Source: an uncultured Eubacteriales bacterium
Lineage (GTDB): Bacteria; Bacillota; Clostridia; Peptostreptococcales; Anaerovoracaceae
Direction: 5' to 3'
NCBI GenBank assembly: GCA_902797195.1
Contig: CADBRY010000110.1
Coordinates: 1-19,461, forward strand
Length of the DNA: 19,461 bases
In this document: piece by piece, positions 1-14,191 of the stretch
How the letters are laid out: the number at the start of each line of letters is the position of its first letter
Position numbering within the stretch: position 1 is the first letter of the stretch
The notes under the pieces: generated by a model
What the model was told of the DNA's origin: nothing
The model's input: the letters and a program-made list of their open reading frames with translations, nothing else
The model's database searches: none
Position numbers and translations under genes: made by a program

Positions 1-120
1 CGGGCTCACCAAACTGCTCCTGCGCCGGCTTGCGGTAGGGTTCTCCTGCGGGCTCACCAAACTGCTCCTGCGCCGGCTGGCGATAGGGTTCTCCTGCGGG
101 CTCACCAAAGGGTTCTCCGG
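1..120. repeat. 48-bp in-frame tandem repeat inside the zinc-ribbon gene
   Basis: Units at 1-48 and 49-96 are identical except for two bases (31/79 and 35/83). The unit starting at 97 keeps the first 13 bases and then skips 24 bases (8 codons) to GGGTTCTCC, so it is an in-frame shortened copy. Each full unit encodes 16 residues with the GEP triplet twice. The array continues off the left edge, so copy number is unknown. The near identity at DNA level suggests recent expansion. Confidence 0.85.
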
Positions 121-289
121 CCGGGCGGATTTCAGCTTCCGGAACCTCTTCCAAATCATTTATCAGTGCAGTGGTTTCTCCCTGATCCGCTCCGATGAAA
201 TCCCTGTTCGCTCCAAGTTTGGCGCCGCATTCTCTGCAGAAATTGGCTGTATCGGGAACCGCTGCTCCACAATTGTTACAAATCTTCAT
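1..289 (-). CDS. Zinc-ribbon protein with GEP-rich tandem repeats (3' end outside window)
   Basis: The first 96 residues of a protein that continues past the left edge. It opens with a zinc ribbon: CxxC (Cys4, Cys7) and a second CxxC about 15 residues on (FCRECG), the pattern of small zinc_ribbon_2 modules at the N-terminus of many clostridial membrane or signalling proteins. An acidic linker follows, then proline/glutamate-rich repeats built on GEP (GEPF, GEPA, GEPY, PAQEQF). ATG at 287-289 is chosen because GGAGG lies six bases upstream; another ATG at 292-294 is too close to that site. It is the last visible member of the minus-strand cluster, 65 bases after the four-helix membrane protein, and may have its own promoter. 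The function is unknown; a membrane segment or further domain may lie beyond the window. Confidence 0.75.
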   Translation of the reverse strand, partial: MKICNNCGAAVPDTANFCRECGAKLGANRDFIGADQGETTALINDLEEVPEAEIRPAGEPFGEPAGEPYRQPAQEQFGEPAGEPYRKPAQEQFGEP

Positions 290-322
290 CTCATTCCTCC
301 TGTTTCCAACACGTCACTTGTA

Positions 323-350
323 TCTATATTATTTACACAAAACTTATCAA
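323..350 (-). promoter_or_regulatory. Candidate promoter for the zinc-ribbon repeat gene
   Basis: Reading the minus strand, TTGATA (345-350) is followed after 16 bases by TATAGA (323-328), just after the stop of the upstream membrane-protein gene. A start site near 316 would give a leader of about 27 bases holding the GGAGG site. The -10 matches only 4 of 6, so read-through from upstream is equally possible. Confidence 0.35.
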
Positions 351-354
351 ATGG

Positions 355-966
355 TTACATGGGTCCTTCCGTTATCCTCATATCGTCACTGAACAGTTCT
401 TTTTTGCTCTCACTTTTCCTGGTTTCTATGATCGCGGCTATTCCGATCACTGCAAGGATCAGATGAAGAGCCACCCATATCCCAAGGGAAAGCGGCTCCA
501 CCGAGACAGTGGCTCCGCTGAAGTTCAGTACCGTTCCGGAAATAAGGCTGTTGACCTTTGATATCTGTCCCATGAAAATTCCCTTTACTATGAGATTCAC
601 GACGATACTCATGACAATCACCGGAACAAGAAGGCTTCTTCGCAAAGCCAACGCAAGCACTGCTTCCACCAGCGGGAGCAGGATGGACAGGATTATAAGC
701 ACCATGAGCATCCTGATCATGTCACCGACCACATCCGATATGGCGGACATATCGATGAAGCCAAAGCCCAGGTTCCCGATGTCTTCGGTTGTATTCATCA
801 TCTTTACCATCTTGAGGATATCGAAATTCCCCATTGGGGTCTTCACCTGAGTAAACACACCCACTATGGCAATGACGATCAGTATAACCGCTCCAATGTA
901 TTTAAGTCTGTTGTTTTCTCTGCCGTATCTGCTCATATTATCAGTAACCCTTTCTGACAACTTCAT
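355..966 (-). CDS. Hypothetical four-helix membrane protein
   Basis: A 203-residue protein of no family I recognise. Four strongly hydrophobic stretches are visible: near residues 24-43 (YIGAVILIVIAIVGVF), 85-108 (MIRMLMVLIILSILLPL), 112-130 (LLVPVIVMSIVVNLIV) and 162-180 (LGIWVALHLILAVIGIAAI). About 40 polar residues lie between the first two helices, and the C-terminal tail is charged. ATG at 964-966 is preferred because AAAGGG lies six bases upstream; it overlaps the 3' end of the kinase gene by 26 bases, so translation is probably coupled. A second ATG just after the kinase stop (19 codons in) would start at MSRYGREN. Its position after the kinase suggests a membrane partner of the kinase system; this is inference from context only. 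Confidence 0.7.
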   Translation of the reverse strand: MKLSERVTDNMSRYGRENNRLKYIGAVILIVIAIVGVFTQVKTPMGNFDILKMVKMMNTTEDIGNLGFGFIDMSAISDVVGDMIRMLMVLIILSILLPLVEAVLALALRRSLLVPVIVMSIVVNLIVKGIFMGQISKVNSLISGTVLNFSGATVSVEPLSLGIWVALHLILAVIGIAAIIETRKSESKKELFSDDMRITEGPM

Positions 967-2950
967 CGTGATCCCTTTCCAGGATCTGTGCCTCATTCTG
1001 ATAGTTCATGCCCGTTCCCCCACAGGCCCTTGCGTTTTCATAGTACCTGTAAAAATTGGAGTAGTCGGCTCTGTTGTTGCCCGAGAGCCTCAGGACCTCC
1101 GCCCTTGCCTTTATGAACCAATAGCTGTGGTCGTAGGCCGAATTCATTTTTTTTAGATAACCTTCCGCTACACGGTCCGCGCCGTCGGGATCCCCAATGG
1201 CGATGCAGCAGTTGGCAAGCTTGTACCAGTCATCGGCTGTTGCGGCATCGGATTCAGCAACCATGGAAAACCGCTCCGCCGCTTTGCCATATTCTTCCAT
1301 GTTGAAATAGGCGTCTCCCGCTCTCCGGTTGATCTGGGGATGCCAGGAAGGACTCATGGTTCTTTCCCCATCCAGCATCGTTTCCACACAGCCGGCATAG
1401 TCATGGCGGTCGTTGTATATTTTGTACATGGACATATATGCCCTGTTCATGAGATACTCATCCTCCGAGCCCAGGTTCCGTCCATTTTTAAGTCCGTCTA
1501 TGGCATTCTCGAAGCTCCTCAAAGCAGCCTCATTCTCTCCCAAAGCCATGTCTATTTCACCCTGAGTGTAGGAGATAGAATAATCTTTCAGGGGATATGG
1601 AGCATCCTTGGCCTTATCTATTTTTTCCTCGGCTCTTGAAGCATCTCCATTTCTGGCAAGGGCCACCGCATAATCTCTGTAGTGTTCCGCCCGCATGAGA
1701 TCGCTGTACATTTCTTCTGTGGTCTGAAAGAGTTTTACCGCTTCACCGGTCTTGTTTATCTCAAGGCAGCTGGCTGCCTGAAGGCAGTAAAGGTCGACTA
1801 TGCTTTTGTGTTCCCCCGCACTCTCTGTATCCGCCTTGACTTTCTTGATGTGGTCACCCACTGTCAGGTTGCAGTCATCATATCTGCCCTGGCAGTAGAG
1901 GGTATAGTCCTTCCAGTAGTAGCCTTCGGCTTTGTCATCGAAGAGATCGATTGCCTTTCCACCCTCGTCCACGGCACCGGCTAGGTCTCCCTTGAGCACG
2001 CAGGACTTGGCCTGGGCGACATGGTCGTCGTACTGAGCCACCTTGTGTTTCTGATATGCCATGAATCCGCCTGTAGCTCCGCATACCACGAGGGCTGCGG
2101 CTATAACCAGCGCCGCCACTTTTTTTCTTTCTCTTCGTTTCTGTTTGAGAGATGCGGAGCTTCTTTCCGGGATCAGGGTGAGGGCCTTGTACATTTCATA
2201 GGCGCTCTGATATCTCATGTCCGGATCCAGGTTGGTGGCCTTCTCAATGACCTTGGCAAAGGGCTCGCCAAGTATCATGGTCAGCTTTCCTATATCGATG
2301 CTGTGGGAATAGTCCGCTCTGACATTGCCCGTGGCCAGATGGTAGAGAGTTGCTCCCACACTGTAGATATCAGCCTTGTCATCGATGATCATTGAGATGT
2401 CTTCCCGCTTTTTCTTACTGGAAACAGCCCAGAATTGTTCGGGAGAGGTGTATCCTCTGGTATAACCCAGAACATTGTTTTCATCGAAGAAAAATGAGAT
2501 GTTAAAGTCTATGAGACAGATGTTGCCGTCGGGTCTGAGCATGATGTTCGACGGCTTGATATCACCGTGGATGATGGGCATCTCCCTGGTGTGAAGATAA
2601 TCCAGGGCACTGCAGATCTGAAGAGCCCACCTGAGCAGGTCATCCTTTGTGAATCTGGCTCCTTCACTCAGTAGCTGCTGAAAGGATTTGCCGGGGATGT
2701 AGCTCATTACGGTAAATACCCCTTGGTCGGTCTCGAGAAAATCCAGGACCTGGGGCAAAAATGTATTGTTCAGATTCTTGAGTATGTCTACTTCCTGCCG
2801 GTTATGCTGAAGACCTTTTCCCGCGTTGGTTATCCTTTTCAGCACGACGGTCTTCTGAAGGCGTTTGTGATATGCCTTATATACAACGCCTCCGCTTCCC
2901 TGTCCGATCTTCTCAAGAATATCGTATGTATCCCGAAGTTCGCTGTTCAT
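941..2950 (-). CDS. Membrane Ser/Thr protein kinase with C-terminal TPR-like region
   Basis: A 669-residue eukaryotic-like (PknB-type) kinase. The glycine loop is GQGSGG (16-21), the ATP lysine is Lys38 (VVLKRI), the helix-C Glu is probably Glu53, the catalytic loop is HGDIKPSN (128-135, base Asp130), the metal site is DFN (148-150) and the activation-segment end is SPE (169-171). HGD in place of HRD makes it a non-RD kinase, and DFN replaces DFG; all catalytic residues remain. A basic stretch (KQKRRERKK) leads into one membrane helix at about 278-299. The remaining 370 residues look like helical TPR repeats (alternating Ala/Tyr/Leu-rich helices) and would lie outside the cell. ATG at 2948-2950 has GGAG five bases upstream; a TTG 21 bases earlier overlaps the previous stop and lacks a good site. 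The substrate is unknown; the upstream FHA protein is an obvious phospho-reader candidate. No PP2C phosphatase gene is visible. Confidence 0.9.
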   Translation of the reverse strand: MNSELRDTYDILEKIGQGSGGVVYKAYHKRLQKTVVLKRITNAGKGLQHNRQEVDILKNLNNTFLPQVLDFLETDQGVFTVMSYIPGKSFQQLLSEGARFTKDDLLRWALQICSALDYLHTREMPIIHGDIKPSNIMLRPDGNICLIDFNISFFFDENNVLGYTRGYTSPEQFWAVSSKKKREDISMIIDDKADIYSVGATLYHLATGNVRADYSHSIDIGKLTMILGEPFAKVIEKATNLDPDMRYQSAYEMYKALTLIPERSSASLKQKRRERKKVAALVIAAALVVCGATGGFMAYQKHKVAQYDDHVAQAKSCVLKGDLAGAVDEGGKAIDLFDDKAEGYYWKDYTLYCQGRYDDCNLTVGDHIKKVKADTESAGEHKSIVDLYCLQAASCLEINKTGEAVKLFQTTEEMYSDLMRAEHYRDYAVALARNGDASRAEEKIDKAKDAPYPLKDYSISYTQGEIDMALGENEAALRSFENAIDGLKNGRNLGSEDEYLMNRAYMSMYKIYNDRHDYAGCVETMLDGERTMSPSWHPQINRRAGDAYFNMEEYGKAAERFSMVAESDAATADDWYKLANCCIAIGDPDGADRVAEGYLKKMNSAYDHSYWFIKARAEVLRLSGNNRADYSNFYRYYENARACGGTGMNYQNEAQILERDHDEVVRKGY

Positions 2951-2967
2951 TTCATCTCCGCCCTTCG

Positions 2968-4128
2968 TCAAACTCTGCTGATCACTTCGAAGGATCTTTC
3001 ACCGACGGTAAGGAGGCTTCCCGGTTTCAGCAGATTTTTCTCACCGTATCTCAGTGGCACTCCCCCGACCCATGTCTGGCCCTTGCCGGATATATCCACA
3101 ACATAGGCGCCTCTGATGGTTCGTATTATCAGGGCATGAGACTCGGATATCCCACGTCCCCGGAGACAGATTTCATTGCCTTTCCCCGTTCTGTCCTTTG
3201 GACGGCCTCCGATTCTTACTACCGGAAGCCTGTCTACGGTCCAGGTTTCCGCCACATCCCTCAGCAGAAGTTCCGGCGCCGTCTTAAGAAAGGTTTCATC
3301 GTAGTCCTGAAAGAAGACCATATGCTCTGCGGCAAATGAGATCAGATCGTAACCGGAAAGATCGCATTCCACATCCGGGGTTATAAGTCTTCCGTTGATG
3401 CCCACGTGATTTACGGATCTGTTGTCCGTTATCGAATAGCGATTTCCATACTTATGTATGGTCATGTGTCGTCTGCTTATTGACGGTTCTCCGGGTATGG
3501 CATAGTCGGAATGGAGCTCGCTTCTTCCTATCCCGAAATTGCTTTTCGTTATATGGATCTTCTCCAAAAGACCTGCGTAGATCAGAAATGTTTCCCTGCT
3601 CCCTCCGCTGACTTCACCGATGGTCTGGGTCAGGGTCATGGTCTTGTCATCCATGTCGATCCGCCTGTCCACCCGGATGTCGGATCTTGTCTCTCCTTTG
3701 CAGAGATCCAGCCCCTCAGCCCTGGTCAGTTTGGCTATAAAGTCCTCGGCAAGGTCGTACTTGCTTCTGAAGATCCCCTGTTTTTCGGCGAGGAGCATCT
3801 CCATGCCGGCGGAGAGTTTCACGTCATCGAGAAAAAGAGTAATCAAATTTTTCTCTTTTATTACGGCAAAATTTATTTCTCTTCTGCAGTTATGGGAATT
3901 CAGACTGGCTTCTGTTACAAAGGCAACGAAAACGGTGCATCTCTCCAGATGATTGGCTATATTCTCAGTCCACTCATCTCCGGGAGTTATGCCCTCGTCG
4001 TACCAGATCCTGTATCCGTCTCTTGCCAGCATCTCAATGTAAGGATACACACGAGCCTTATCCTTATGACTATAGCTGACAAAAATAAAAGGTCTGGAGC
4101 CTTCATATGGTTCCACATTGCATTTCAT
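2968..4128 (-). CDS. TIR-FHA-FHA domain protein
   Basis: A 386-residue soluble protein. Residues 13-130 form a TIR_2-like domain: FIFVSYSHKD (14-23), the WYDEG strand (42-46) and an S..C..E motif with Glu84, the position of the catalytic glutamate in NAD-cleaving TIR domains. Residues about 178-268 form an FHA domain with the pThr-binding set intact: Gly-Arg202, Ser218-Arg219-x-His221 and Asn245-Gly246. Residues about 303-384 look like a second, degenerate FHA fold: Gly-Arg309 is present, but SRxH has become SESH (328-331) and the Asn-Gly pair is lost. FHA domains bind phosphothreonine, so the kinase encoded immediately downstream (18-base gap) is the likely partner. GGGGA lies about eight bases before the ATG. 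It might be an NAD hydrolase gated by phosphorylation, or a TIR scaffold with no enzyme activity; the sequence cannot decide. Confidence 0.85.
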   Translation of the reverse strand: MKCNVEPYEGSRPFIFVSYSHKDKARVYPYIEMLARDGYRIWYDEGITPGDEWTENIANHLERCTVFVAFVTEASLNSHNCRREINFAVIKEKNLITLFLDDVKLSAGMEMLLAEKQGIFRSKYDLAEDFIAKLTRAEGLDLCKGETRSDIRVDRRIDMDDKTMTLTQTIGEVSGGSRETFLIYAGLLEKIHITKSNFGIGRSELHSDYAIPGEPSISRRHMTIHKYGNRYSITDNRSVNHVGINGRLITPDVECDLSGYDLISFAAEHMVFFQDYDETFLKTAPELLLRDVAETWTVDRLPVVRIGGRPKDRTGKGNEICLRGRGISESHALIIRTIRGAYVVDISGKGQTWVGGVPLRYGEKNLLKPGSLLTVGERSFEVISRV

Positions 4129-4155
4129 CCGTCTAATTCCCCACTGTATGACGCA

Positions 4156-4530
4156 CTATATTTCCGATTCAAAGTAAAAAACCTGATCCAGATCCATTTC
4201 CTCAAACCGTCTGAAAACATCAGGTTTAACGTTCTTTATTACCAGTTCACCGTCCCTGTCGTCTATCATATGCTGAACGTTCAAAAACATACTGATCACA
4301 GAATTATCTATGGTCTCAACACCACCCATGTCCATATGGATGCTGGAGCGGACCAAAGCGATAGATGTCAATTCATCCTCAAGGTCGTTTACTATATATG
4401 AAGTGAGCTCCCCCTGAGGAGCCACACAAACATGATCATCACATATAGTCTCTTTTATTTTTGTGCAGGTGCCGGTCTCCGTGTTCTCAAGGATCAGCGT
4501 CTCATCCAGCATTTCTCTGTTTATAGCCAT
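4156..4530 (-). CDS. STAS-domain protein (anti-sigma factor antagonist-like)
   Basis: A 124-residue protein whose C-terminal 90 residues have the STAS pattern. It has a strand (VCVAPQGELTS), a helix, a strand ending SSIHMDMGGVETIDNS and a helix (VISMFLNVQHMI), then GELVIKNV and a final FRRFEEMDLDQVFYF. TIDNSV aligns with the D-S-S/T-G phospho-acceptor loop of SpoIIAA-like proteins, so Ser in DNS is the likely phosphorylation site. About 30 N-terminal residues precede the domain. The ATG follows directly on the TAA of the upstream 66-residue gene (TAAATG), so the two are translationally coupled. A cognate anti-sigma kinase of the SpoIIAB/RsbW type is not seen nearby; the partner could be the cluster's own Ser/Thr kinase. 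Family call is fairly secure, role is inference. Confidence 0.75.
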   Translation of the reverse strand: MAINREMLDETLILENTETGTCTKIKETICDDHVCVAPQGELTSYIVNDLEDELTSIALVRSSIHMDMGGVETIDNSVISMFLNVQHMIDDRDGELVIKNVKPDVFRRFEEMDLDQVFYFESEI

Positions 4531-4731
4531 TTACTCTTCCTCTTCGCTTCTGGCCTGCATCTCCTTGAGAAACAGCGCAAAATCCCTGTTGCCGGTAGCC
4601 GCTCTCACCTGATCAAGTTCATTAAGATCAAGCTTGCGCCCTTTGACCCGGCCCTTCTGCCCCGGTTCCTCACCCATGAATCTCTTGTATTCCATGTAAT
4701 CTCTGAATTCTCTGTCACTTATCTTTTTCAT
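4531..4731 (-). CDS. 66-residue charged protein; possible exporter substrate or leader-like peptide
   Basis: A small, very hydrophilic protein between the ABC exporters and the STAS gene, 69 bases after the second exporter. The N-terminal part is basic and charged (MKKISDREFRDYMEYKRF), and the tail ends in EEEE. Residues 34-45 read LDLNELDQVRAA. Aligned with double-glycine leaders this puts Leu at -12, Glu at -8, Leu at -7 and Val at -4, with Ala-Ala instead of Gly-Gly at -2/-1; the remainder would be 21 residues. C39 peptidases recognise just this helix pattern, and a C39 exporter lies in the same cluster. Against this, Ala-Ala is not a usual cleavage site and the tail is not bacteriocin-like. 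It could instead be a small cytosolic regulator. The ribosome site is weak (GAGTGAG four bases from ATG). No family recognised. Confidence 0.7.
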   Translation of the reverse strand: MKKISDREFRDYMEYKRFMGEEPGQKGRVKGRKLDLNELDQVRAATGNRDFALFLKEMQARSEEEE

Positions 4732-4800
4732 GATCTCACTCTTTTCTTCATAACATATATGGCTGATTTATGCTTCTTATACACATATGCACCCAATGTG

Positions 4801-7002
4801 TTACATCTGTCTGCGCATAAGAGAGTAAAATATTCCTTTTTTTTCGATAAGTTCCTCCAAATGGCCGTATTCAACTATCCTGCCATTTTCCAGCACTGCT
4901 ATTTTATCACATTTGCTTATGGTTGAGTAGTTATGTGAAACAGACACTACCGTTGCCTTTCTCCTGTCAACGGCTTCTCTGAGTTTCACCTGTTCTCTGC
5001 TTCTCAGCTCGCTTTCGGCCTCGTCCATAAACAGTATTCGGGGATTGGCCATCAGGGCGCGTGCGATAAGGATCTTCTGCTTCTGCCCCGCGGAAATGTT
5101 CTCCCCGTCCTCACGGATCAGGGTATCGTATCCCATGGGAAAATTATCCAGCTCATCGGCAAGGCCCGAATCCTCAGCGGCCTGCCTGAAATCTTTTTCA
5201 TCCCAAAGCCCATTCCCCATAATGATATTGTCTCTGATGGTGGCGGTCAGCAGATGATCATCCTGCATAAGGGTGCTGGCGATCATGTCCATTGCCTTTC
5301 CAAGATCATCAGGGCTGCGTCCCAAAAGCCTGATCCTTCCGGAATCGGGAGTTGCTGCGCCGGAGAGGAGTTTCATAAGAGTGGACTTGCCGCTCCCTGA
5401 GGCACCGACGAGGCCCAGGCTCTCACCTTTCCCGATGGAAAGAGAGACATTTTCTATCACCGGTTCCTCCCCGTAGCCGAAGGAGATCTCATCGGCGGCG
5501 ATCACTTCGGCTCCTTCAGGGGCAGCGTCATAGGCGGTTACAAGCTCAGCGGAAGTGTCATCGGCCGCCATAAGTTCGGCCACATCGTTACCGGTTCCGT
5601 CGGCCTCAGCTTCATCGCCCCCTTCATTCACGACCTCTGCTCCAGCCGATGAACTGCTTATCACACCAAGCCCGCCGCTGCTTTCGGCTATGGCCGCGGC
5701 TCCCATCACACCCTCCAGGGCGGCTGCGGCACATCCAAGCATGCAGGCAAGGCTCTCATTATTCGAATAACCCCTTCCCATAAGAATGAATGCGGCGATG
5801 ACCGTCATTGCCAACCCCAGGACTATGCCCGCCGCGGAACGTCCAAGTATTACTCTCTTCTCCACCCAGCGGCTCCGTTGCTTTTCATCCCTCTTCGCCT
5901 CGTAGTACCTCTTTATCATGTGCTCAAGAGCGCCGGCCAATCTTATCTTTTCTATTCTGTATATTATCTCCACCAGGATCAGGCTCACTCTATCCCCGTA
6001 TGCCCTCAGCCGGGAGCGTCTCATTTCCAGAGTCCTGAGACTTACGTAGATCAACATCCCCGCCAAAGAAATGGCCGCGGCCGAAACTGCGGCGGCTGCC
6101 GGGAACATGATAAACAAGGGGATAAGTATCCCCACGGCGGAAACAAGTCCGGTCACCCCCTCCAGCCTTCCCTCAACTGTACTTCTGATCATTTCGAAAC
6201 CCTTCACCGCCTTGGAGGCCATTATCTTTCCCTCCTCTTCACCGGAACTGCCTTCATTAAAGTTATACAGGTCTTCGTAGAAAGCGTCCTGGATCTTCAG
6301 AGCTTCCTTTTCCGCCCATCTTCCTGATCCGGTCCGGGCGATCCAGTGGCTCACCACGAACATGAGGATCCAGAACAGGGTCATGGCGTGCCCCGAGTCA
6401 TGGCAAAGGTCGACCATCGCGCATGTGATGCAGCAGGAGATCATGAGAGAAAAAATTATGAGGGGGAACATATATCTGCCGATCCCCATCCGCCCAGGGG
6501 CCATGTCCTTTTTTCTTCCTTCTTCAAAGTCAACGGAGCCTTCACCGCTTTGCTTGAGAATGTTCTCCGTCTCTTTTCTTTCCCTTTTTCTGTGTTCCTC
6601 ACTGCGGGTTATGAGTACATCGTCCCTTATCTCTCTCTTCAGATAGTACTCCCTCAGAGTCTCCTCCAGACCTTCCTTCTCTGATTTATCATCCAGATGG
6701 ATCCTCGATCTGAACCTCTTCTTCAGCGGCTTCGTGGAGCCGTTTTTCACTATGTGCAATGTACAGTCATCCGTAGCTTCAAACTGCAGATTCCAGTCCG
6801 TGTAGTTATGATCCTTTGAGGAGACCGAGGGGATCATGCTTCCCTCTTCACAGTGCAAAAGAAACAGAGGCCGTCCCTGAATCCCATTCTCCGTTGGCAC
6901 CAAAAACACATCCACGGATCCACTGATGATCTTGAATGCATCCGCAGGGTTTTCGGTCTTATAGGTTTTTCCCGTGGAAAGTTCAATCATTGTCTTTTCC
7001 AT
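4801..7002 (-). CDS. NHLP-type bacteriocin export ABC transporter, permease/ATPase subunit
   Basis: A 733-residue half-transporter. About 90 N-terminal residues resemble the cyclic-nucleotide-binding-like domain seen in the ATPase/permease subunit of NHLP (nitrile-hydratase-leader) export systems. Membrane helices cluster at about 175-225, 285-330 and 395-450. The ATPase has Walker A GASGSGKST (about 534), signature ISAGQ (about 638), Walker B ILFMDEAE (about 658) and an intact H-loop SVSHN. Unusual is an acidic, Ala/Glu/Asp/Gly-rich linker of about 55 residues (around 450-505) between the membrane part and the ATPase. The start overlaps the preceding exporter gene by 20 bases; the in-frame ATG four codons on (6988-6990) has GGAAAAG upstream and may be the real start. 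The overlap and fold imply that it pairs with the C39 exporter as a heterodimer, but this is inference. Confidence 0.85.
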   Translation of the reverse strand: MEKTMIELSTGKTYKTENPADAFKIISGSVDVFLVPTENGIQGRPLFLLHCEEGSMIPSVSSKDHNYTDWNLQFEATDDCTLHIVKNGSTKPLKKRFRSRIHLDDKSEKEGLEETLREYYLKREIRDDVLITRSEEHRKRERKETENILKQSGEGSVDFEEGRKKDMAPGRMGIGRYMFPLIIFSLMISCCITCAMVDLCHDSGHAMTLFWILMFVVSHWIARTGSGRWAEKEALKIQDAFYEDLYNFNEGSSGEEEGKIMASKAVKGFEMIRSTVEGRLEGVTGLVSAVGILIPLFIMFPAAAAVSAAAISLAGMLIYVSLRTLEMRRSRLRAYGDRVSLILVEIIYRIEKIRLAGALEHMIKRYYEAKRDEKQRSRWVEKRVILGRSAAGIVLGLAMTVIAAFILMGRGYSNNESLACMLGCAAAALEGVMGAAAIAESSGGLGVISSSSAGAEVVNEGGDEAEADGTGNDVAELMAADDTSAELVTAYDAAPEGAEVIAADEISFGYGEEPVIENVSLSIGKGESLGLVGASGSGKSTLMKLLSGAATPDSGRIRLLGRSPDDLGKAMDMIASTLMQDDHLLTATIRDNIIMGNGLWDEKDFRQAAEDSGLADELDNFPMGYDTLIREDGENISAGQKQKILIARALMANPRILFMDEAESELRSREQVKLREAVDRRKATVVSVSHNYSTISKCDKIAVLENGRIVEYGHLEELIEKKGIFYSLMRRQM

Positions 7003-9049
7003 ATACGCTAAGATCCAGCACTTTGCTCTCTTCTCTTATGAGCACATCATCCCCTGTGATCAGCAGGCAGGTGCAGCCCCGCCTCCTTATATTGTTTATT
7101 ATCTTAAGGGTGGTTTCATCGTCTATGGCGCTGAAGGCCTCATCCATTATCAGGATAGAAGGATTTGCCGCAAGGGCCCTGGCGATTTCTATTCTTTGCT
7201 GCTCACCGCCGGAAAGCCCCCGTCCATTTACCCCAAGTCTGGTTTCAAGCCCCATCTGCCTCTTTGCTATAAATTCTTCGGCGCAGGCATCCTTCACCGC
7301 TTTTTCTATCTCATCCTCGCTTATATTCGGATTCCAAAGTGTAATATTCTCTCTTATGGTTGCGGGAAAAAGCACCGGTTTTTGTTCAACGACGGCTATG
7401 CTCGCATATATTGTTTTTGGTGAAATGGATGTGATGGTCCTGCCATCGTATCTGATTTCACCTTCTTCAGGCATTATCAGTCCTCCCAGCATTTTCCCAA
7501 GAGTCGATTTCCCGCATCCCGTCTCACCGGTGATTACAAAAAAGGTTCCTCCGGCAATGTCAAAGCTGAGGTCTTCAAAGAGCGGCTGTCCAAATGTTCC
7601 GTACTTGAAGCTCACACCCTTCACCCGGATATTTCCCCGGAGCTTCTGATACTCCCGTGAACGGCCCATGGTATCCTTTACCTCTTTATGCTTTGCCTCC
7701 TCAGGCAGCCTGCCGCCGTTGATATCTTCTTCCATACCGCCGGGGATCTCAAATAATTCAATAAGTTTTTCACCGCTTATTATCATGATCATCCCCATCA
7801 TGCACCAGGAGATAACAGCAGTGAGTTCCATATGAGCGCCATATATGTGCAGGGACAGAAGAACCGCCCCGCAGTAGACCACATATGTGATCCCTTTTCG
7901 CATCCTGCCCCGGCCTCTGATCCTGCCTCTGACATTTTCGGTAACGTCCCGGGCATCCTTCAGCCTTTGGATGTATTCATGGGCCTGTCCGGATTTTTTT
8001 ATAATGTCACGGCTGTCTATATCGGTGAAGGCTGTCCTGATCAGATTGCTTTCAAGAACTTTTGCCTTTACACGGTCCCTGGCCTGGATCCGGTCAAAGA
8101 GTATTCTGAGAGCACCGGACACACCTACGCCGAGGAGCACCGGCAAAAGCCCCCGGGGAGATGCGGCAAACATGAAAATGACAGAAACTATCAGGCCGAA
8201 GAGCCCGACTGCAAGGGTGCTCACAAATCCTACGGCGAACCTGTTCACCCGGTCATTGTGTGCCGTGCGGCCGACCAGATCCTCGGGATAACGGTCCTGA
8301 AGATATGTGATTGGAGCCTGAAGAAGTCTCCTCAGGTATGTCCATGAGCCTCTGATCTCGAACTTGTCCTTCCAAAGGGATAAGAAATACAGATATACCC
8401 CTGAAGACAGGACCGCCAAAAACAGGGCGATAAAAAAAACAACAAGGTTATTTAAAGAGGGAGACCGATCAAGGCCTATCAGTATGGCCGCGGCGGCTGC
8501 AAAGGCAACGGACATGATCCCGGAAAAGATGGTCGTCCAGGCATTTGGCACACTGCTTCTTAGCATCTGCAGCAGCCTTCCGGATCCAAAAAAACCTTCC
8601 GGCTTTTTTCCGTATGATACGTGCTCCCTGAATCCATCCCCCGGCCGGAAGGTAAGGACTATTCCGGAGAATTCTTTTTCCATTGTATCCCGGCTTACAT
8701 CCCGTTTTCCGAAGGCCGGATCGTTGAGCAAAAAGCGGTGGTTTTTGATCCCTTCAAAGACGACAAAGTGATTGTTCTCCCACCATAAAATAAAGGGGGG
8801 CTCCAATCCTCCAAGCTGGTCGATATCCACCTCGAGACCCTGACAGTCAAGCCCCCTTCTGTCGGCGGCCCTCACTATATTTCCCGCGCTGCATCCATCC
8901 CGGGAGACATCGGTCTCCCTGCGCATCTCCTCAAGGGAAGCGTATTGCCCGTGATACTGCAGTATCATGGACAGACAGGCCGCTCCGCACTCGGTCATTT
9001 CAGTCTGCAGCACGGTCCGTGTATTGACCGCCTTGAAAGTCTTTTCCAT
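6983..9049 (-). CDS. C39 peptidase-containing ABC exporter (NHLP peptidase/permease/ATPase type)
   Basis: A 688-residue PCAT-type transporter that would clip a leader peptide and export the cargo. The N-terminal C39 peptidase has Gln15, catalytic Cys21 (TECGAAC), His94 (NNHFVVF) and Asp110 (LNDPAFG). A membrane domain with several helices occupies about 165-440. The ATPase has Walker A GETGCGKST (about 506), Q-loop VEQKPVLFP, signature LSGGEQQR (about 613), Walker B ILIMDEA (about 632) and D-loop SAID. The H-loop is degenerate: where most exporters read AHR the sequence has ITGDD, so the switch histidine is missing. ATG at 9047-9049 starts one base after the sigma factor's TAG, with only a distant GAGGAGG, which suggests translational coupling. 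No classical nitrile-hydratase or Nif11 leader precursor lies in the window. Confidence 0.9.
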   Translation of the reverse strand: MEKTFKAVNTRTVLQTEMTECGAACLSMILQYHGQYASLEEMRRETDVSRDGCSAGNIVRAADRRGLDCQGLEVDIDQLGGLEPPFILWWENNHFVVFEGIKNHRFLLNDPAFGKRDVSRDTMEKEFSGIVLTFRPGDGFREHVSYGKKPEGFFGSGRLLQMLRSSVPNAWTTIFSGIMSVAFAAAAAILIGLDRSPSLNNLVVFFIALFLAVLSSGVYLYFLSLWKDKFEIRGSWTYLRRLLQAPITYLQDRYPEDLVGRTAHNDRVNRFAVGFVSTLAVGLFGLIVSVIFMFAASPRGLLPVLLGVGVSGALRILFDRIQARDRVKAKVLESNLIRTAFTDIDSRDIIKKSGQAHEYIQRLKDARDVTENVRGRIRGRGRMRKGITYVVYCGAVLLSLHIYGAHMELTAVISWCMMGMIMIISGEKLIELFEIPGGMEEDINGGRLPEEAKHKEVKDTMGRSREYQKLRGNIRVKGVSFKYGTFGQPLFEDLSFDIAGGTFFVITGETGCGKSTLGKMLGGLIMPEEGEIRYDGRTITSISPKTIYASIAVVEQKPVLFPATIRENITLWNPNISEDEIEKAVKDACAEEFIAKRQMGLETRLGVNGRGLSGGEQQRIEIARALAANPSILIMDEAFSAIDDETTLKIINNIRRRGCTCLLITGDDVLIREESKVLDLSVYGKDND

Positions 9050-9050
9050 G

Positions 9051-9578
9051 CTATAAGATCTGCAGGACCTCCTCGTCCTGCACCCGTACATTGAGTTGCT
9101 GTAATGTCCTTGACAGTATGACCCTGACATTGGCAGGGGTGAGCCCAAGCTTTTCCCCTATGTCCTTTGTCTTCATATCCTCGTAGTATCTGAGTATGAG
9201 CACCTGTCTTTTAGTTTCATCCAGAGTTGAAAGAAGGCCGTCCAGGTATTCACTGATCTCATTCAGTCTCATTGCCTGATCGAATTCCTCCTCATAGGGA
9301 ACGTCAAAACCTTCCATGTTGTCGATGGATGCTTCCTGCTTGTTGTCCCTGTAGTAGTTTTTAAGAGTGTTGTTGGCTATCACAAAGACCCATGTTGAGG
9401 CAGCCGCCTTCTCGGGATCGTACTTTTCTATATTCTTGTAACACTTAAAGAATACATCCCCCGTCAGGTCCTCCGCATCGTGTGGATTGTTTACACGCGC
9501 TTTGATATAGGACAAGACCCGGCTGTAGTAATCTTCATAGATTTGCTGAAAAAATGCTTCGTGATCCATGGTTTTCAT
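9051..9578 (-). CDS. RNA polymerase sigma factor, ECF-like sigma-70 family
   Basis: A 175-residue two-domain sigma factor. Region 2 covers about residues 4-75, with DAEDLTGDVFFKCYKN (core binding) and the WVFVIANNTLKNYYRD segment that normally contacts the -10. Region 4 covers about 113-170, a helix-turn-helix with LPQ-like LDETKRQVLILRYYEDMKTKDIG and LGLTPANVRVILSR. The open frame runs upstream into the glycosylase gene, but ATG at 9576-9578, 10 bases after the glycosylase TAA, fits the ECF length; MDHEAFF three codons on is an alternative. It is followed after one base by the C39 exporter gene. It may activate this cluster or an associated regulon. No anti-sigma factor of usual type is seen; the STAS protein downstream is an indirect hint at partner switching. 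Confidence 0.9.
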   Translation of the reverse strand: MKTMDHEAFFQQIYEDYYSRVLSYIKARVNNPHDAEDLTGDVFFKCYKNIEKYDPEKAAASTWVFVIANNTLKNYYRDNKQEASIDNMEGFDVPYEEEFDQAMRLNEISEYLDGLLSTLDETKRQVLILRYYEDMKTKDIGEKLGLTPANVRVILSRTLQQLNVRVQDEEVLQIL

Positions 9579-9588
9579 TCTGTCTCTT

Positions 9589-10413
9589 TTAACCGTAGTG
9601 CTTCCTGTAATAGGCAAACATATACTGCTGATAAACTCCGTTATATGGGGAGTACTCCTCGTAAGGATATCCATCCGGATACTCCTGTTCAAGTATCCTC
9701 TTTATCCATACATCTATGGGAAAGGCATCGATATGATGCAGGCCGAAGAGAGAAATGCAGCTTGCCACCTTCTTTCCCACTCCGTGGATAGAGATCAGTT
9801 TATCCAGAGTCTCTTCCTCATCCGCATCCCTGAGTGCATCAAGATCTATTTCTCCCCCCTCCACCGCCTTTGCGGCTGCGGTCACATATGCGCATCTGTA
9901 CCCCAGACTGCAGGATACCAGATCACCTTCTTCAAGGTCCAAAATTGCCTTTGGAGAAGGGAACCCGTAGTAGGTCTTTCCCCTGACATCTTTCAGTTTC
10001 TTCCCGCTCATCTCGCAGAGCTTTTCCACGCACCGGCGTATCCCGGGTATATTCTTGTTCTGAGATATGATGAAGGTTATGAGCATCTCCCAGGGATCCT
10101 GCCTCAGGATCCTTATGCCCTTCTGCTCCTTTGCGGCCACCTTCAAAAAGGGATCCTTTTCTCCGTCGATGCGCCTTCTGATTTTTCTGTAGTTTTCCCC
10201 AAGATCCAGATAGTTATCCCAATCGGTACCGTTGCCTTTCTCGTCCATTTCAAAGAAATATACATTCTTCTCCCCGGGGCTTATGTAAAGGCAATCATTC
10301 CCGTGGATGATCCTGTAAGTTCCGTTGTCCTCTTCTTCCCATCTGAAGCACTGTCCGCTGTCGGCGATCAGTTTCAGATCGAAATCATCGGTTATCTTCT
10401 TTTCGACTATCAT
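9589..10413 (-). CDS. 8-oxoguanine DNA glycosylase (OGG1 family)
   Basis: A 274-residue base-excision-repair enzyme expected to remove 8-oxoguanine and nick the strand. The N-terminal half has the OGG_N pattern (FDLKLIADSGQCFRWEE, then YISPGE and WDNYLDL). The C-terminal half has the helix-hairpin-helix: IHGVGKKVASCISLFG, whose second Lys aligns with the Schiff-base lysine (Lys249 in human OGG1), and PIDVWIKRI, whose Asp matches the catalytic aspartate. QNKNIPGIRR is the usual loop of bacterial members. GGAG lies eight bases before the ATG, under a strong-looking promoter. It is the first gene of the minus-strand cluster, with the sigma factor 10 bases after it. A repair gene leading a signalling/export operon is unusual; it may be only an old neighbour. 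Confidence 0.92.
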   Translation of the reverse strand: MIVEKKITDDFDLKLIADSGQCFRWEEEDNGTYRIIHGNDCLYISPGEKNVYFFEMDEKGNGTDWDNYLDLGENYRKIRRRIDGEKDPFLKVAAKEQKGIRILRQDPWEMLITFIISQNKNIPGIRRCVEKLCEMSGKKLKDVRGKTYYGFPSPKAILDLEEGDLVSCSLGYRCAYVTAAAKAVEGGEIDLDALRDADEEETLDKLISIHGVGKKVASCISLFGLHHIDAFPIDVWIKRILEQEYPDGYPYEEYSPYNGVYQQYMFAYYRKHYG

Positions 10414-10448
10414 CGTGGGTCTCCTTCGGGCAAACAGCCCATATATCG

Positions 10449-10476
10449 ATTATATTATCCCAGATATATTAGTCAA
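10449..10476 (-). promoter_or_regulatory. Promoter of the glycosylase-sigma-exporter cluster
   Basis: On the minus strand TTGACT (10471-10476), a 16-base spacer and TATAAT (10449-10454). The -10 is perfect and the -35 matches 5 of 6. The predicted start near 10442 gives a leader of about 29 bases with the GAAGGAG ribosome site. It is the only clear promoter seen for the genes down to about 355. Confidence 0.7.
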
Positions 10477-10513: not shown

Positions 10514-11299
10514 ATGGTTATTTTCAGACGAAACAAATCTATTACGGCACTCATATTATCCTGTACACTCTGCCTGATCGCAGGCGGGCTTTTTTACGGG
10601 ATATTTCTCCATGACAAAGGACCCGGTCCTAAGGAGCCGGCCGCATCCACCGGCGAAACAAAGGCTTCTTCCCGGAGCAATCCTTCCGACGAAACAAAGG
10701 CGGCGGACACCGGATTTACCGTATACATAGAGACCGGCCACGGACGGGAGGACAGCGGCCGCTGGGACACAGGCTGCTCCTGGTCAGACGGAGAAAAGGA
10801 CTATGAGGAAGCTGAGCTGATGATCCCCATCGCAAAATCAATGGCAGCTTACCTGCGTTCATCGGGGGTAAAAGTGGTTACGGATGCGGATGAAGACAAT
10901 AACAGGAACCTGGAGTACACCCTGGACTACCTGGAGGATCATCCGGAAATAAACGCCTTTATCAACATACACTGCGATTGGGAAAATGCCGAATCGGGGA
11001 CCATGCCTCTCTACCGCACGGAGGAACAGCTTGAACTTGGAAAAGCCCTGAACAAAGGAGTCCACAGCCTTATAGACATGCCTGACAGAGGAGAGACCCA
11101 CAGGGAAGATCTGGATACTCTCAACAGCGAAAAAGTCCACTGCCCTGCCGTACTCTTTGAAACGGGAAGCATAAAGGAAGACAACCACATCCTTACAGAA
11201 AAATATGATGCCTACGGCAAAGGTCTTGCCATAGGCATGTGCGATTATCTTGGTGTAGAATTCAAGGAATCTTCAGATCCCTCTAAGTCAGATCTTTAA
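10514..11299 (+). CDS. Membrane-anchored N-acetylmuramoyl-L-alanine amidase (Amidase_3 family)
   Basis: A 261-residue zinc hydrolase expected to cut the amide bond between muramic acid and the stem peptide of peptidoglycan. Residues about 9-31 are a hydrophobic signal anchor after a basic start (MVIFRRNKS). A Pro/Ser/Thr/Lys-rich linker with a repeated GETKA/DETKA motif follows, then the catalytic domain from about 68. Zinc and catalytic residues: His76 (ETGHG, replacing the usual DPGHGG), Glu98 or Glu99, His153 (NIHCD) and Glu216 (FETGS). The domain is short for the family. There is no Shine-Dalgarno before the ATG and the promoter sits about 15 bases upstream, so the leader is very short. 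It is divergent from the glycosylase operon, and its end overlaps the opposite-strand YARHG gene by 17 bases. Confidence 0.85.
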   Translation: MVIFRRNKSITALILSCTLCLIAGGLFYGIFLHDKGPGPKEPAASTGETKASSRSNPSDETKAADTGFTVYIETGHGREDSGRWDTGCSWSDGEKDYEEAELMIPIAKSMAAYLRSSGVKVVTDADEDNNRNLEYTLDYLEDHPEINAFINIHCDWENAESGTMPLYRTEEQLELGKALNKGVHSLIDMPDRGETHREDLDTLNSEKVHCPAVLFETGSIKEDNHILTEKYDAYGKGLAIGMCDYLGVEFKESSDPSKSDL

Positions 11300-12083
11300 G
11301 GAACTCAACGTTTTCCTTCTCATAGTTGTTCATTCTGGATCTCACCTGATCCATATCATTTGTGTCGGGCCTGTACCAGTCAAATCCGTAGTAGTAATTG
11401 CTGAAGTCGTTGTTTTTGAAGGAATAGCCATTTCTGGCATAGATGTCATTCACTATCTTCTGGATCTGATTCTCCGACATATCCCTGACGTCAGCGTATC
11501 CAAGCCGCCTGCTGTCGCTGTCCGGAAAGAATATGGGCACGTTGGATGTATAAAGTCTGCTTTCAGGTTCGTCAATATATGTGGAATAGTCACTGTTTCC
11601 GGTCCCACTGTTTCCCTCATTCTGATCATAGGAACCGGTCTCCTCCTGATCCGGGACAGTGTACTGCTCTTCCGCACTGGTCTCTACGGGCACGGTCACC
11701 TCTTCACTTGAGGAGTCATCCCTGTCGCCATTCAGGAAGTACATGGTCCCGAATATGGCAGCCAGTACAGCCAGTCCTATACCCGCCCCAAGAAGGATCA
11801 TCTTGAGCACCCCGTTATCCCGCTTTTCCCTGTTTGCCTGGGTGGCGTAATGGCCGGTCACGGCACTGTCACTGAGTCGATAACCACAAGCTCTGCACAC
11901 TCCCAGGGATCCTTCAACCAGAGAGCCGCATCTGGGGCAGATCCTGTGAGACGACCTGGGCTGTTCTTTCTCGGGAGGAAGCAGCTGGGTCCTGTCGGGA
12001 TCGTCAAAGGCGATCTTCGCACCGCAGTTTTCGCAAAACTTCGTCCCTGTTACATTGTCATAACCACATCTTGCACACTTCAT
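11283..12083 (-). CDS. Double zinc ribbon-TM-YARHG domain protein
   Basis: A 266-residue single-pass membrane protein. Two zinc ribbons lie at the N-terminus: CARCG...CENCG (3-21) and CPRCG...CRACG (49-68). One membrane helix follows (about 95-116, MILLGAGIGLAVLAAIFG), then an acidic Ser/Gly/Glu-rich stretch. The C-terminal YARHG-type domain reads IVNDIYARNGYSFKN...DWYRP (about 213-245), here with Asn where the name-giving His would be. The topology suggests zinc ribbons inside and YARHG outside. It is the last gene of an operon with the response regulator and the histidine kinase (13-base gap), so it may sense or transmit an envelope signal. AGGA lies about eight bases before the ATG. The YARHG function is not known. 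Confidence 0.85.
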   Translation of the reverse strand: MKCARCGYDNVTGTKFCENCGAKIAFDDPDRTQLLPPEKEQPRSSHRICPRCGSLVEGSLGVCRACGYRLSDSAVTGHYATQANREKRDNGVLKMILLGAGIGLAVLAAIFGTMYFLNGDRDDSSSEEVTVPVETSAEEQYTVPDQEETGSYDQNEGNSGTGNSDYSTYIDEPESRLYTSNVPIFFPDSDSRRLGYADVRDMSENQIQKIVNDIYARNGYSFKNNDFSNYYYGFDWYRPDTNDMDQVRSRMNNYEKENVEFLKDLT

Positions 12084-12096
12084 AAAACTATCCTGC

Positions 12097-13407
12097 TCAA
12101 GAGGCGCCGTTATCGTCTTTAAGGGTCACCGTCACAACTGTACCCTTGCCCGGTGAACTGGAAATACTCAGGTCACCTCCGGCTTCAAGCTTGATCCTCT
12201 CCCTGATATTGTAGATTCCCTCCCGGGTTATATCCTGGATCTTGAGTTTATCCGTATTGAATCCAACTCCATCGTCCGTAACAACTATCTGCACCCAGTT
12301 TCCCTTCATCAGCCTTGTGGAAATCGTTACGGTACCCCCTTCTTCCTTGGGGGATACTCCATGTTTTACGGCATTCTCCACCAGTGGCTGGATGGTAAGG
12401 GGCGGAATGAAAAAGTCTTCATACTTGATATCATATTCTACTCGGATACGGTCGCCAAAGCGCAGCTCTTCCAGTGAGACGTAATTCTTTATCTCGGTCA
12501 GTTCCCATGAAAAAGGCACAGTCTCCGCTCTTTCAATTACCTCAAGAGTATTCCTCATATACTCGGAAAAGGTTCCTATTGCGTACTGGGCTTTGCGGGG
12601 ATCTGTGTCACAGAGATAGTAGATGCTCGTAAGTACATTATACAGATAGTGAGGCTTCATCCTGCCGGTGGCCATGGTTAAGCGGTTCCGCATATTTTCC
12701 GCCTCCTCGATCCGATATCTGGTCTCGATGTCCATGTGATGCTGTGTATAGACGATCACGAATCCGATGGAAATCAAAGGATAATGCAGCTCGATGCCAT
12801 CCAGAAATGGTTCAATAAACGTAGCTGTCAGTATAAGCAAGGGCATTGACATAAGAACGGCGATCTGTCGTTTATCAAGATAGTCCCGGTACTTTATAAG
12901 CAGTCCCATCGTCATTATTACAAGTACGATCCCGCCGGAACTGCCTATAAGAGTTTGTAATGAAAAGACGCTGTTGCCCATATCATGGCCAAAGGTTTTG
13001 AAATTGCTCTCGAACATGGTCAGCACTCTCAGAAGAGCACTTAATATACTTACTACCAGAGCAATATAGGATATGATGACTGGCACGGGCCTGTCTCCTT
13101 CGATCCCGTTGATCTGCGCCCTGACGTAGACCATGTACATAAAAAATATGGCATAGAGGCCGATACTTGCCATTGCCATCAGGATAATGCTCGCTATGCT
13201 GTTCAGGCTGCTGTCTATCACAAGACTTGCGGCATAGCATAGCATTGTAAAAGCAATCGTGAGCATCTCGACGAAAAATATTCTCGATGCCCGTGATTTC
13301 AAACTTTTTTTGGGATAATTAAGCAATACGATTATCGCTTCGATACCGCAGAATATAAGCAATGCAATATTTATTGCCTTTACGGTAAAATCCGTCAGAT
13401 CAGTCAT
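12097..13407 (-). CDS. Seven-TM sensor histidine kinase, LytS/YehU-like
   Basis: A 436-residue membrane kinase. Seven hydrophobic helices fill residues about 8-235. The His_kinase motif follows: MKPHYLYNVLTSIYYL with the phospho-acceptor His near 250, a variant of the usual NPHFLFN. The HATPase domain has the N-box PLVENAVKHG, G1 VTDDGVGF and G2-like REGIYNIRERI with GKGTVVTV at the end. It would phosphorylate the response regulator encoded just upstream; the two genes overlap by eight bases (ATG inside the end of the regulator). AAGGG is only three bases from the ATG. The N-terminal membrane domain has no ligand-binding module that I recognise. The downstream gene is the YARHG protein. Confidence 0.9.
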   Translation of the reverse strand: MTDLTDFTVKAINIALLIFCGIEAIIVLLNYPKKSLKSRASRIFFVEMLTIAFTMLCYAASLVIDSSLNSIASIILMAMASIGLYAIFFMYMVYVRAQINGIEGDRPVPVIISYIALVVSILSALLRVLTMFESNFKTFGHDMGNSVFSLQTLIGSSGGIVLVIMTMGLLIKYRDYLDKRQIAVLMSMPLLILTATFIEPFLDGIELHYPLISIGFVIVYTQHHMDIETRYRIEEAENMRNRLTMATGRMKPHYLYNVLTSIYYLCDTDPRKAQYAIGTFSEYMRNTLEVIERAETVPFSWELTEIKNYVSLEELRFGDRIRVEYDIKYEDFFIPPLTIQPLVENAVKHGVSPKEEGGTVTISTRLMKGNWVQIVVTDDGVGFNTDKLKIQDITREGIYNIRERIKLEAGGDLSISSSPGKGTVVTVTLKDDNGAS

Positions 13408-14191
13408 TTTCCCTTGTTTCCAGACTGCCGTGGGTCACTTCCGCCCAGCTGTACTGCTGCATATACTCTCCGTGATAGGAATTGATTCCCTTTGGCTCTC
13501 CGGCCAGATAGTCGAAGAAATCGCACTTCATCTTTGACGGGATAACGCCTATGCCGCCTCTCATGGTGACCACCGCATCGTTTGCTCCCACGGATTTCAA
13601 TGTGTCAAGCAAGTCCTTCCTGAGCTGTTTGATGTAAGATGATCTGTCTTCATCATCATCCCATAGGGTTGCCTTGATCTCGCCTATATTCACTACCGCA
13701 CAGTTTCTGTCAATAAGATAGGCAAGAAGTTCCTTCGTCTTGGAGTACTTGAACTTAAGAGGATGTCCGTCGTAGAACACCTCAAAATTACCGAATGCCT
13801 GAACTCTGAGTCCTTTATCGTCATCCTCATTGATGGGATTCCTAAGGTTTTTAAGCTCTGCATTGACCTTCTCAACCGTGAGCGGCTTGTTGACATAACC
13901 ACTGGCATGCAGCGAAAAAGCCTCCCCTGCGTACTGCTGATATGCCGTTGCGAAGATAATGTTCGTGTCGGGAGAAACCTTCTTGATCTTCTTTGCCAGC
14001 TCAACGCCTGACATTCCAGGCATCTCTACATCGAGAAAGGCAATATCAAAGACCTTCTGGTCAACCTCCTCCAGAGCTTCCTCAGGACCTGCGCACACTA
14101 CTAATTGAGCGTCAGGCATACATTGTCCAATAATCCTTGCTGATCCTTCGCGTATGATCTGTTCATCATCTACTATTAATATTCTAACCAT
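13400..14191 (-). CDS. Response regulator with receiver and winged-helix/BTAD (SARP-like) output
   Basis: A 263-residue two-domain regulator. The receiver (1-120) has the acidic pair Asp8-Asp9, phospho-acceptor Asp54 (FLDVEMPGMSG), Thr in FATAY and the conserved Lys in VNKPL. The output domain (about 138-263) begins VQAFGNFEVFYDG and has KTKELLAYLIDR, a Trans_reg_C-type winged helix, followed by a short stretch resembling the start of a BTAD region (CDFFDYL, YHGEYMQQYSWAE) that stops early. It likely controls cell-envelope or cluster genes on phosphorylation by the adjacent kinase. ATG at 14189-14191 gives the canonical MVRILIVDDE start; the frame extends upstream only to a TTG. There is no well-spaced ribosome site: AAGGTG is about 15 bases away, and TATAAT lies six bases before the ATG. 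Confidence 0.9.
   Translation of the reverse strand: MVRILIVDDEQIIREGSARIIGQCMPDAQLVVCAGPEEALEEVDQKVFDIAFLDVEMPGMSGVELAKKIKKVSPDTNIIFATAYQQYAGEAFSLHASGYVNKPLTVEKVNAELKNLRNPINEDDDKGLRVQAFGNFEVFYDGHPLKFKYSKTKELLAYLIDRNCAVVNIGEIKATLWDDDEDRSSYIKQLRKDLLDTLKSVGANDAVVTMRGGIGVIPSKMKCDFFDYLAGEPKGINSYHGEYMQQYSWAEVTHGSLETREND

Follow-up and report, generated by a model that had tools for sequence, protein, structure and literature searches.

Background

In the NHLM (NHLP/Nif11) type of peptide export, as described in the available text of Haft 2010 (PMC2887384) and covered by the models TIGR03794, TIGR03796 and TIGR03797, a C39-type transporter subunit, ABC1, is found together with a second subunit, ABC2, and a short precursor whose leader ends in a double residue. 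The same three features appear in a gene cluster of an uncultured Eubacteriales bacterium (Anaerovoracaceae; assembly GCA_902797195.1), located on contig CADBRY010000110.1, of which the whole stretch of 19,461 bp was analysed and is from here on called the window. In this cluster the exporter genes stand together with genes for a 66-residue precursor-like peptide (p66), an ECF sigma factor, a STAS protein, a TIR-FHA-FHA protein and a Ser/Thr kinase. The window is an entire contig (C110) of a draft genome of 1.55 Mb in 300 contigs, 78% complete. Relatives of the locus also carry an HlyD-like protein and Nif11-like peptides, as NHLM loci do, whereas the window departs from NHLM in that its proteins score below the curated cut-offs, HlyD is missing, no modifying enzyme was noticed, the precursor has a leader of another family, ending in Ala-Ala, and STAS, TIR and ECF are recurrent partners.

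According to the available text of the same paper, one Burkholderia NHLP type has a large Ser/Thr kinase next to it, and a kinase near NHLP-type loci therefore has a precedent. In type VI secretion a threonine phosphorylation pathway of kinase, phosphatase and FHA protein, PpkA/PppA/Fha, is described (PMC5995506, available text); the present locus resembles it in having a kinase, an FHA protein and, in relatives, a PP2C phosphatase beside a secretion machine, and differs in that the machine is an ABC peptide exporter, that FHA is fused to TIR and that the arrangement is known from the genes alone. The available text on MlaFB (PMC7367683) describes the STAS protein MlaB on the ABC ATPase MlaF, and here too a small STAS protein is encoded with an ABC transporter; Mla, in contrast, transports lipids, and binding of STAS to the ATPase is for our locus only proposed. 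PAMT gene clusters are peptide-related as well and share with the window locus an FHA protein encoded close to ABC transporter genes; they centre, however, on an O-methyltransferase, and C39, TIR and STAS are not mentioned in the available text (PMC10787088). No publication joining NHLP/Nif11 with FHA, TIR, STAS or a sigma factor, or FHA/PP2C with type I secretion or C39, was found among sources that were mostly titles and abstracts and included few subscription journals; the first description of the window had likewise known of no account of such a link to an NHLP-type exporter.

Conserved gene order in related genomes

Among 61 genomes searched with the TIR-FHA protein, 20 matched at E 0.001, and besides the own genome only three, other species of the genus (G011, G013 and G020), match most of the protein (43–50% identity), the rest matching via single domains. 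The order ABC1, ABC2, p66, STAS, TIR-FHA is identical in these three, with the ECF gene before ABC1, so that the exporter pair and the TIR/FHA genes, whose linkage had been proposed from the window, are neighbours in related genomes as well. The locus of G011 is split inside ABC1 (contigs C82 and C13) and that of G020 inside ABC2 (C78 and C112), and across these breaks we infer adjacency; a stretch at the end of one contig (L048, G011:C82, 1–1879), which encodes PP2C, ECF and the N-terminal 198 residues of ABC1 one after the other, is probably the front that the G011 locus lacks. Searches of the same 61 genomes with ABC2 and ABC1 at E 1e-40 gave seven genomes each, G011 and G013 being on both lists and G020, its ABC2 cut by contig ends, on the ABC1 list. 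The other matches (G012, G029, G057 and G059 for ABC2; G028, G037 and G057 for ABC1) mainly concern the ATPase part or reach 25–26% identity, and G012 holds an ordinary ABC pair.

Around this core the flanking genes vary, and a PP2C, a membrane zinc-ribbon FHA protein, another kinase and an FHA-FHA-ABC2 permease are each present in at least one relative and not in the window. The last of these, an FHA-FHA-ABC transporter fused to an ABC-2 permease, was seen in three genus members (L035, 13743–16094; L034, 8208–10619; L037, 7664–9991), and its nearest match in the own genome has 33% identity, in the ATPase part only.

A scan of genome contigs with a single protein query found nothing. When 84,980 species genomes were scanned with a four-row TIR-FHA alignment, at least 80 TIR loci appeared, and all counts below concern the 80 matches listed. 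An exporter was found in 11 of them, leaving 69 without exporter in the stretch examined; for 33 of these the available sequence covers less than 8 kb upstream of TIR, so that absence is not proven for all, two have no TIR profile match, and L050 and L054 are counted here although their contigs end inside ABC2. Fisher values computed from these counts take no account of kinship among the loci or of truncated contigs. The exporter loci contain STAS in 11, p66 in 10, ECF in 10, FHA in 9, PP2C in 6, HlyD in 5, kinase in 5 and Nif11-like Gly-Gly peptides in 3 cases, compared with 5, 2, 2, 6, 2, 0, 4 and 1, respectively, among the other 69. The near-constant part of the exporter loci is ECF, exporter, peptide, STAS and TIR, and not kinase/FHA. 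The idea that TIR alone defines the locus was rejected, since 69 of the 80 listed loci have TIR without exporter in the stretch examined.

According to the record titles the hosts are Clostridia or unplaced bacteria, mostly known from metagenome assemblies, with one cultured strain, Schaedlerella arabinosiphila DSM 106076 (L068), among the exporter loci; many of the Clostridia come from gut and rumen samples. Its genome has a second, partial place (L112, 9537–10267), a partial STAS-TIR copy about 18 kb from the first with TIR cut after 90 residues.

In a sample of 366 genomes of the class, one genome (G663) has ECF, ABC1, ABC2, p66, STAS and TIR in a row. Leaving the own genome aside, this sample holds, by visual count, 24 exporter ABC2 genes (25 rows, of which two represent the same gene), at least five of which (G663, G533 twice, G406 and G327; also by eye) have a STAS match on the same contig within ~5 kb. 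At least one of these five STAS genes probably belongs to another module; an RsbU-like phosphatase was seen by eye in L134. The combination of p66, STAS and TIR occurs with one of the 24, G663. Because it alone shares the arrangement, the locus forms one branch among the NHLM-like exporters, a branch whose exporter, peptide, STAS and TIR genes stand together and are often accompanied by those for kinase, PP2C and FHA.

The short peptide p66

All features of the gene run in the window lie on the minus strand, the p66 gene at 4531..4731. The peptide, delimited by alignments and a profile, has no Pfam family above cut-off and no NCBIfam match at E 0.1, hence no NHLP or Nif11 leader. Its leader ends in L-S/D-x-x-E-L-x-x-V/I-x-A-A, which is of the C39 recognition type; the predicted recognition motif, LDLNELDQVRAA, covers positions -12 to -1 (4597..4632; rule from the available text of PMC6363468), and downstream of the predicted cut follows the predicted released part of 21 residues (4534..4596). 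In an alignment of four genus members Leu39, Asp40, Ala44 and Ala45 are kept.

When searched against 5.8 billion proteins the p66 profile gave 42 clusters at E 0.01, the window's own included. An alignment of 45 sequences (the window, 41 of the clusters and three loci), with counts taken column by column along the window protein, revealed Leu in 36 and Met in 8 at -12, Glu in 35 at -8, Leu in 44 at -7, Val in 24 and Ile in 20 at -4, and Ala in 44 at both -2 and -1, where the remaining row is gapped. Positions -12, -7, -4, -2 and -1 are jointly kept in 44 of the 45, and beyond the predicted cut Asp is found at +5 in 41, Phe at +6 in 36 and Phe at +9 in 40. The hydrophobic residues of p66 at -4, -7 and -12 agree with what is expected of a C39 substrate, these being the positions that LahT150 needs (PMC6363468, PMC10885120; available texts).

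A strict version of the motif, which was composed once p66 was known, matches 20 of the 7832 frames with 40–80 residues in loci L034–L162, and 16 of the 20 are p66-profile relatives, representing 12 distinct genes. Within the window p66 is the sole match among frames of 30–200 residues, and the genus loci showed no match besides p66 among frames of 40–80 residues. As the matches are mostly p66 relatives and p66 stands alone in the window, chance does not explain the motif. The precursor-like peptide p66 is the likely cargo of the exporter.

Applied to 297 genomes of the order, the profile finds p66 in the own genome and G013 only; in the 366 genomes of the class the own genome and G663 match clearly and three others weakly, one of the weak matches (G533) sitting between exporter and ECF gene. 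A p66-like peptide directly before an ECF sigma gene was also seen in two NHLM-like loci (L133, 12562–13258; L136, 7266–7942), both with leaders ending in Ala-Ala before Gly-Asp. The peptide gene of L136 overlaps the ECF gene, and the gene after ECF there encodes, by eye, a subtilisin-type protease.

In three loci (L055, L057 and L058) p66 is found beside separate peptides with Gly-Gly sites. One such peptide from L055 and one from L057 were tested and score weakly for a Nif11 leader, the L057 peptide also for a class IIb bacteriocin, all below cut-off. Since p66 is conserved across species and other loci have a separate, variable Gly-Gly cargo, a signalling or regulatory role of p66 is likelier than that of a bacteriocin.

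The exporter subunits ABC1 and ABC2

The ABC1 gene (6983..9049; start at the ATG at 9049, scanned from 9058) encodes an N-terminal C39 peptidase (Peptidase_C39, PF03412, 123 bits), a transmembrane domain whose model PF00664 reaches 19 bits, below cut-off, and an ATPase (PF00005, 108 bits), and residues 15–650 align end-to-end on PCAT1 (E 1e-52). ABC2 (4801..7002) has an N-terminal beta-strand domain (residues ~1–90), transmembrane helices and an ATPase. The best model for ABC1, which is NHLM_micro_ABC1-like, is TIGR03796 with 461 bits against a cut-off of 853.3, and for ABC2 TIGR03797 with 244 bits against 709.4. Since NHLM models match best yet under their cut-offs, the two are by sequence divergent relatives of NHLM exporters; the initial assignment to the NHLP type holds as to the best-matching models and not as to the curated thresholds. 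Exporter relatives in L055 and L068 pass the cut-offs (TIGR03796 993 and 910 bits, TIGR03797 794 and 716 bits), and one HlyD among the exporter relatives reaches 172 bits with TIGR03794.

In the predicted model of ABC2 the N-terminal domain forms nine strands (residues 5–85, block pLDDT 76–93), in a whole chain with a pLDDT of only 66 and a pTM of 0.39. A cyclic-nucleotide-binding domain was rejected, as no such Pfam match exists in 12 members at E 1. A fold search with the whole chain gave ABC transporters for all of the best 50 matches, by which the N-terminal domain was barely probed, and a protein search with residues 1–490 gave one near-identical match. With a profile based on ABC2 proteins linked to TIR, the domain is found in all 11 exporter loci and in L132, and not in the other ABC2 of L133–L155; diverged copies are, by eye, present in L151 and L154 with no TIR nearby, and the domain is therefore not a marker for TIR. 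The ABC2 proteins of G013 (L035, 17805–19838) and G020 (L037, 11715–12923) are ~30 residues shorter than that of the window, the last aligned residues being 703–705 of 733 and a TGA lying inside the G013 match, apparently a trait common to both.

STAS, TIR-FHA and phospho-signalling genes

The STAS gene (4156..4530) begins with an ATG right after the p66 stop and its product matches STAS (49.5 bits) and STAS_2 (35 bits). It is similar to SpoIIAA/RsbV in fold and sequence (eight PDB sequences, E 7e-10 to 3e-4), and unlike them in that the phospho-acceptor Ser is not conserved and the cluster has no HATPase kinase. Ser at the position of SpoIIAA Ser58, which we take to be the phospho-acceptor, was seen by eye in 4 of 11 aligned STAS proteins, the window's included, and no HATPase anti-sigma kinase was found among the ten cluster genes with Pfam and NCBIfam. 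Both observations weaken the idea of STAS as an RsbV-like anti-anti-sigma factor for ECF. Such a partner switch is not dead, since exporter locus L133 groups a p66-like peptide, ECF, a 407-residue protein with no Pfam match and STAS.

The TIR-FHA-FHA protein (2968..4128) contains a TIR fold, found both with Pfam (TIR_2, 69 bits) and in the predicted model, and FHA in two stretches (69 bits), the first of which resembles the FHA of DgcB. The TIR resembles those of SPARTA, AbTir and SARM1, domains with NADase activity, in fold and in a conserved Glu, and differs from them in its FHA and exporter context, its own activity being only predicted. For TIR residues 1–159 no sequence match was found in the PDB. 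E84 is invariant in 36 of 36 sequences and, judged by the TIR motif, is the putative catalytic Glu. In L057, L058, L060, L062, L063 and L132 the TIR protein has no FHA match. A second TIR protein of the same type is encoded in the own genome (L040, G000:C281, 7693–8304; 43% identity over 140 residues), cut by the contig end and with no exporter match on the 8.3 kb of its contig.

The Ser/Thr kinase (941..2950; Pkinase, 128 bits, plus TPR) has a TPR-like tail and, by eye, an apparent transmembrane segment, and relatives of 45–48% identity are found in L037 and L046. A Pfam PP2C match was confirmed in one tested example from a relative (69 bits); the nearest PP2C match in the own genome has 32% identity and lies on another contig. 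With kinase and FHA in the window, and with the phosphatase on which a kinase/FHA switch would depend, PP2C, adjoining the module in 6 of the 11 exporter loci, the tie between exporter and phospho-signalling genes drawn at the outset stands in so far as these genes recur in relatives. It does not stand for a constant part of the locus: phospho-signalling near the exporter is frequent and not constant, given FHA, PP2C and kinase in 9, 6 and 5 of the 11 exporter loci.

Gene layout and other genes of the window

The earlier note, written from the letters of the window, had listed ten minus-strand genes under one clear promoter, most of them selected to be made together. All ten are open frames with the domains stated (frame listing, Pfam and NCBIfam), Pfam domains being found in all except the 66-residue protein and the 4-TM protein described below. 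The junctions also agree with the sequence: ABC1 and ABC2 overlap by 20 bases and the kinase and 4-TM genes by 26, p66 and STAS join in TAAATG, STAS and TIR are 27 bases apart, the other gaps are short, and the widest one, between ABC2 and p66, is 69 bases. In that gap (4801–4731), where transcription might have been split, no terminator-like site on the minus strand was reported. As for the promoter, a σ70-like match (TTGACT-16-TATAAT, 10449..10476) upstream of the run agrees with the consensus in 11 of 12 positions, although over the whole region -35/-10 sites are as frequent as in shuffled sequences (12 versus 11.4, sd 3.6).

First in the run is an OGG-type 8-oxoguanine DNA glycosylase (9589..10413; OGG_N, 68 bits, plus HhH-GPD). 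In relatives that were examined no such gene was noticed next to the module, with no search aimed at it, and the glycosylase probably stands outside the conserved module. The ECF sigma factor follows (9051..9578; Sigma70_r2 and r4_2; start at the ATG at 9578, scanned from 9572). After the kinase comes a small membrane protein with no Pfam match above cut-off, called the 4-TM protein (355..966); at its place L037 and L046 encode proteins (286 and 301 aa) whose C-terminal stretch is FHA-like by eye and for which no BLAST match to the window's 4-TM protein was seen. A zinc-ribbon plus repeat protein (2..289; Zn_Ribbon_1, 36 bits) is truncated by the contig edge. At 95% DNA identity this gene also opens contig C39 (L003, G000:C39, 1–4768), where a membrane part and two long proteins with zinc ribbons, of 576 and 641 aa, come next. 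Contig C39 is probably the next part of the locus, from a mixed-strain assembly, and was left unjoined.

Outside the run, at 11283–14191, the gene for a YARHG/zinc-ribbon protein comes before those for a His_kinase/HATPase sensor kinase and a response regulator, possibly a receptor pair in the vicinity of the exporter.

Proposed function and alternative explanations

The reading that we favour, with some reserve, is that the locus is a divergent, Clostridia-type relative of NHLM-like peptide export loci that has p66 as its own precursor and is joined to a regulatory module. The C39 domain of ABC1 would recognise the leader helix of p66, its dedicated precursor, and cut after Ala-Ala (Ala45), and ABC1/ABC2 would export the resulting peptide of ~21 residues, a step suggested by motif and synteny. 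By analogy, STAS could be a small regulator co-made with p66, whose most likely docking site is the ATPase of the exporter, in the way that MlaB pairs with MlaF, or else p66. The TIR-FHA protein may bind a partner that the nearby kinase phosphorylates on threonine and that PP2C, where there is one, resets, and may thereby couple export, or its consequences, to a signal; by likeness to type VI secretion, phospho-controlled peptide export, as the earlier note had proposed, is a working hypothesis.

Several points weigh against this reading. STAS and TIR are tied to the exporter by gene position alone, and within the stretch examined only 6 of the 11 exporter loci have PP2C and 5 a kinase. The 11 loci are not independent (L052 is the same as G011 and L118 as G013), most loci come from draft metagenome assemblies, and the profiles behind the locus counts were built partly from the same loci. 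The p66 profile does not find p66 in the Schaedlerella exporter locus, and Pfam and NCBIfam find no HlyD-type accessory (TIGR03794) among the ten window genes. The C39 substrates reviewed in the available text of PMC10885120 end in GG, GA or GS at -2/-1, whereas p66 ends in Ala-Ala, with Ala at -2 in 44 of 45. Because of this Ala, cleavage of p66 is not assured, and an uncut binding partner is possible.

The best-surviving alternative starts from that residue: p66 could stay inside the cell as a partner of the exporter, its leader lodged in the C39 groove as a pseudo-substrate that is cut slowly or not at all, and could together with STAS gate the pump for other peptides. The Ala at -2, unlike the Gly-Gly cargo of the same loci, is as expected for such a partner, as are the position of p66 near STAS in 10 of the 11 exporter loci and a leader more conserved than the C-terminal part (63% versus 48% identity to the window protein in 22 rows at least 35% identical overall). 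We nevertheless hold it to be unlikely, with every recognition position for cutting kept and with no other cargo in sight, p66 being the only strict-motif frame in the window and the genus loci within the lengths given above.

Somewhat less likely still is a competition or defence locus, in which an antibacterial peptide would be secreted and TIR would be a NAD-cleaving effector freed by phospho-signalling upon damage or phage. The TIR resemblances fit such an effector, whereas p66 is conserved and not diversifying, the window genes include no known defence partner that Pfam and NCBIfam reveal (no defence-specific library was used), and TIR of this type is common with no exporter (the 69 listed loci, including the 33 with short upstream coverage).

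FlgM is an exported anti-sigma factor, and p66 might in a similar way be an exported regulator whose departure reports a working pump via STAS and ECF, while TIR, recruited by FHA to a phosphorylated partner, would make a NAD-derived signal read by the N-terminal beta domain of ABC2; we consider this elaboration improbable. That two unrelated operons became neighbours by chance or hitch-hiking is very improbable and largely refuted already by synteny, for although such TIR genes occur elsewhere without exporter, a few with kinase or PP2C (L114), and the OGG and zinc-ribbon genes are not constant members, the order recurs in several genera and STAS (11/11 versus 5/69) and p66 (10/11 versus 2/69) follow the exporter.

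Whichever role p66 has, the locus is a testable one, in which genes for an exporter, for short precursor-like peptides of a new family and for TIR/STAS, frequently with those for FHA, kinase and PP2C, are kept together across Clostridia. The p66 profile and the STAS-TIR synteny are handles for loci that current bacteriocin models may miss, since the p66 sequences tested match no Pfam or NCBIfam model. Should p66 be a secreted signal, it would represent a peptide language in bacteria where few are known, and if TIR gates the pump, TIR signalling would be extended from defence to secretion.

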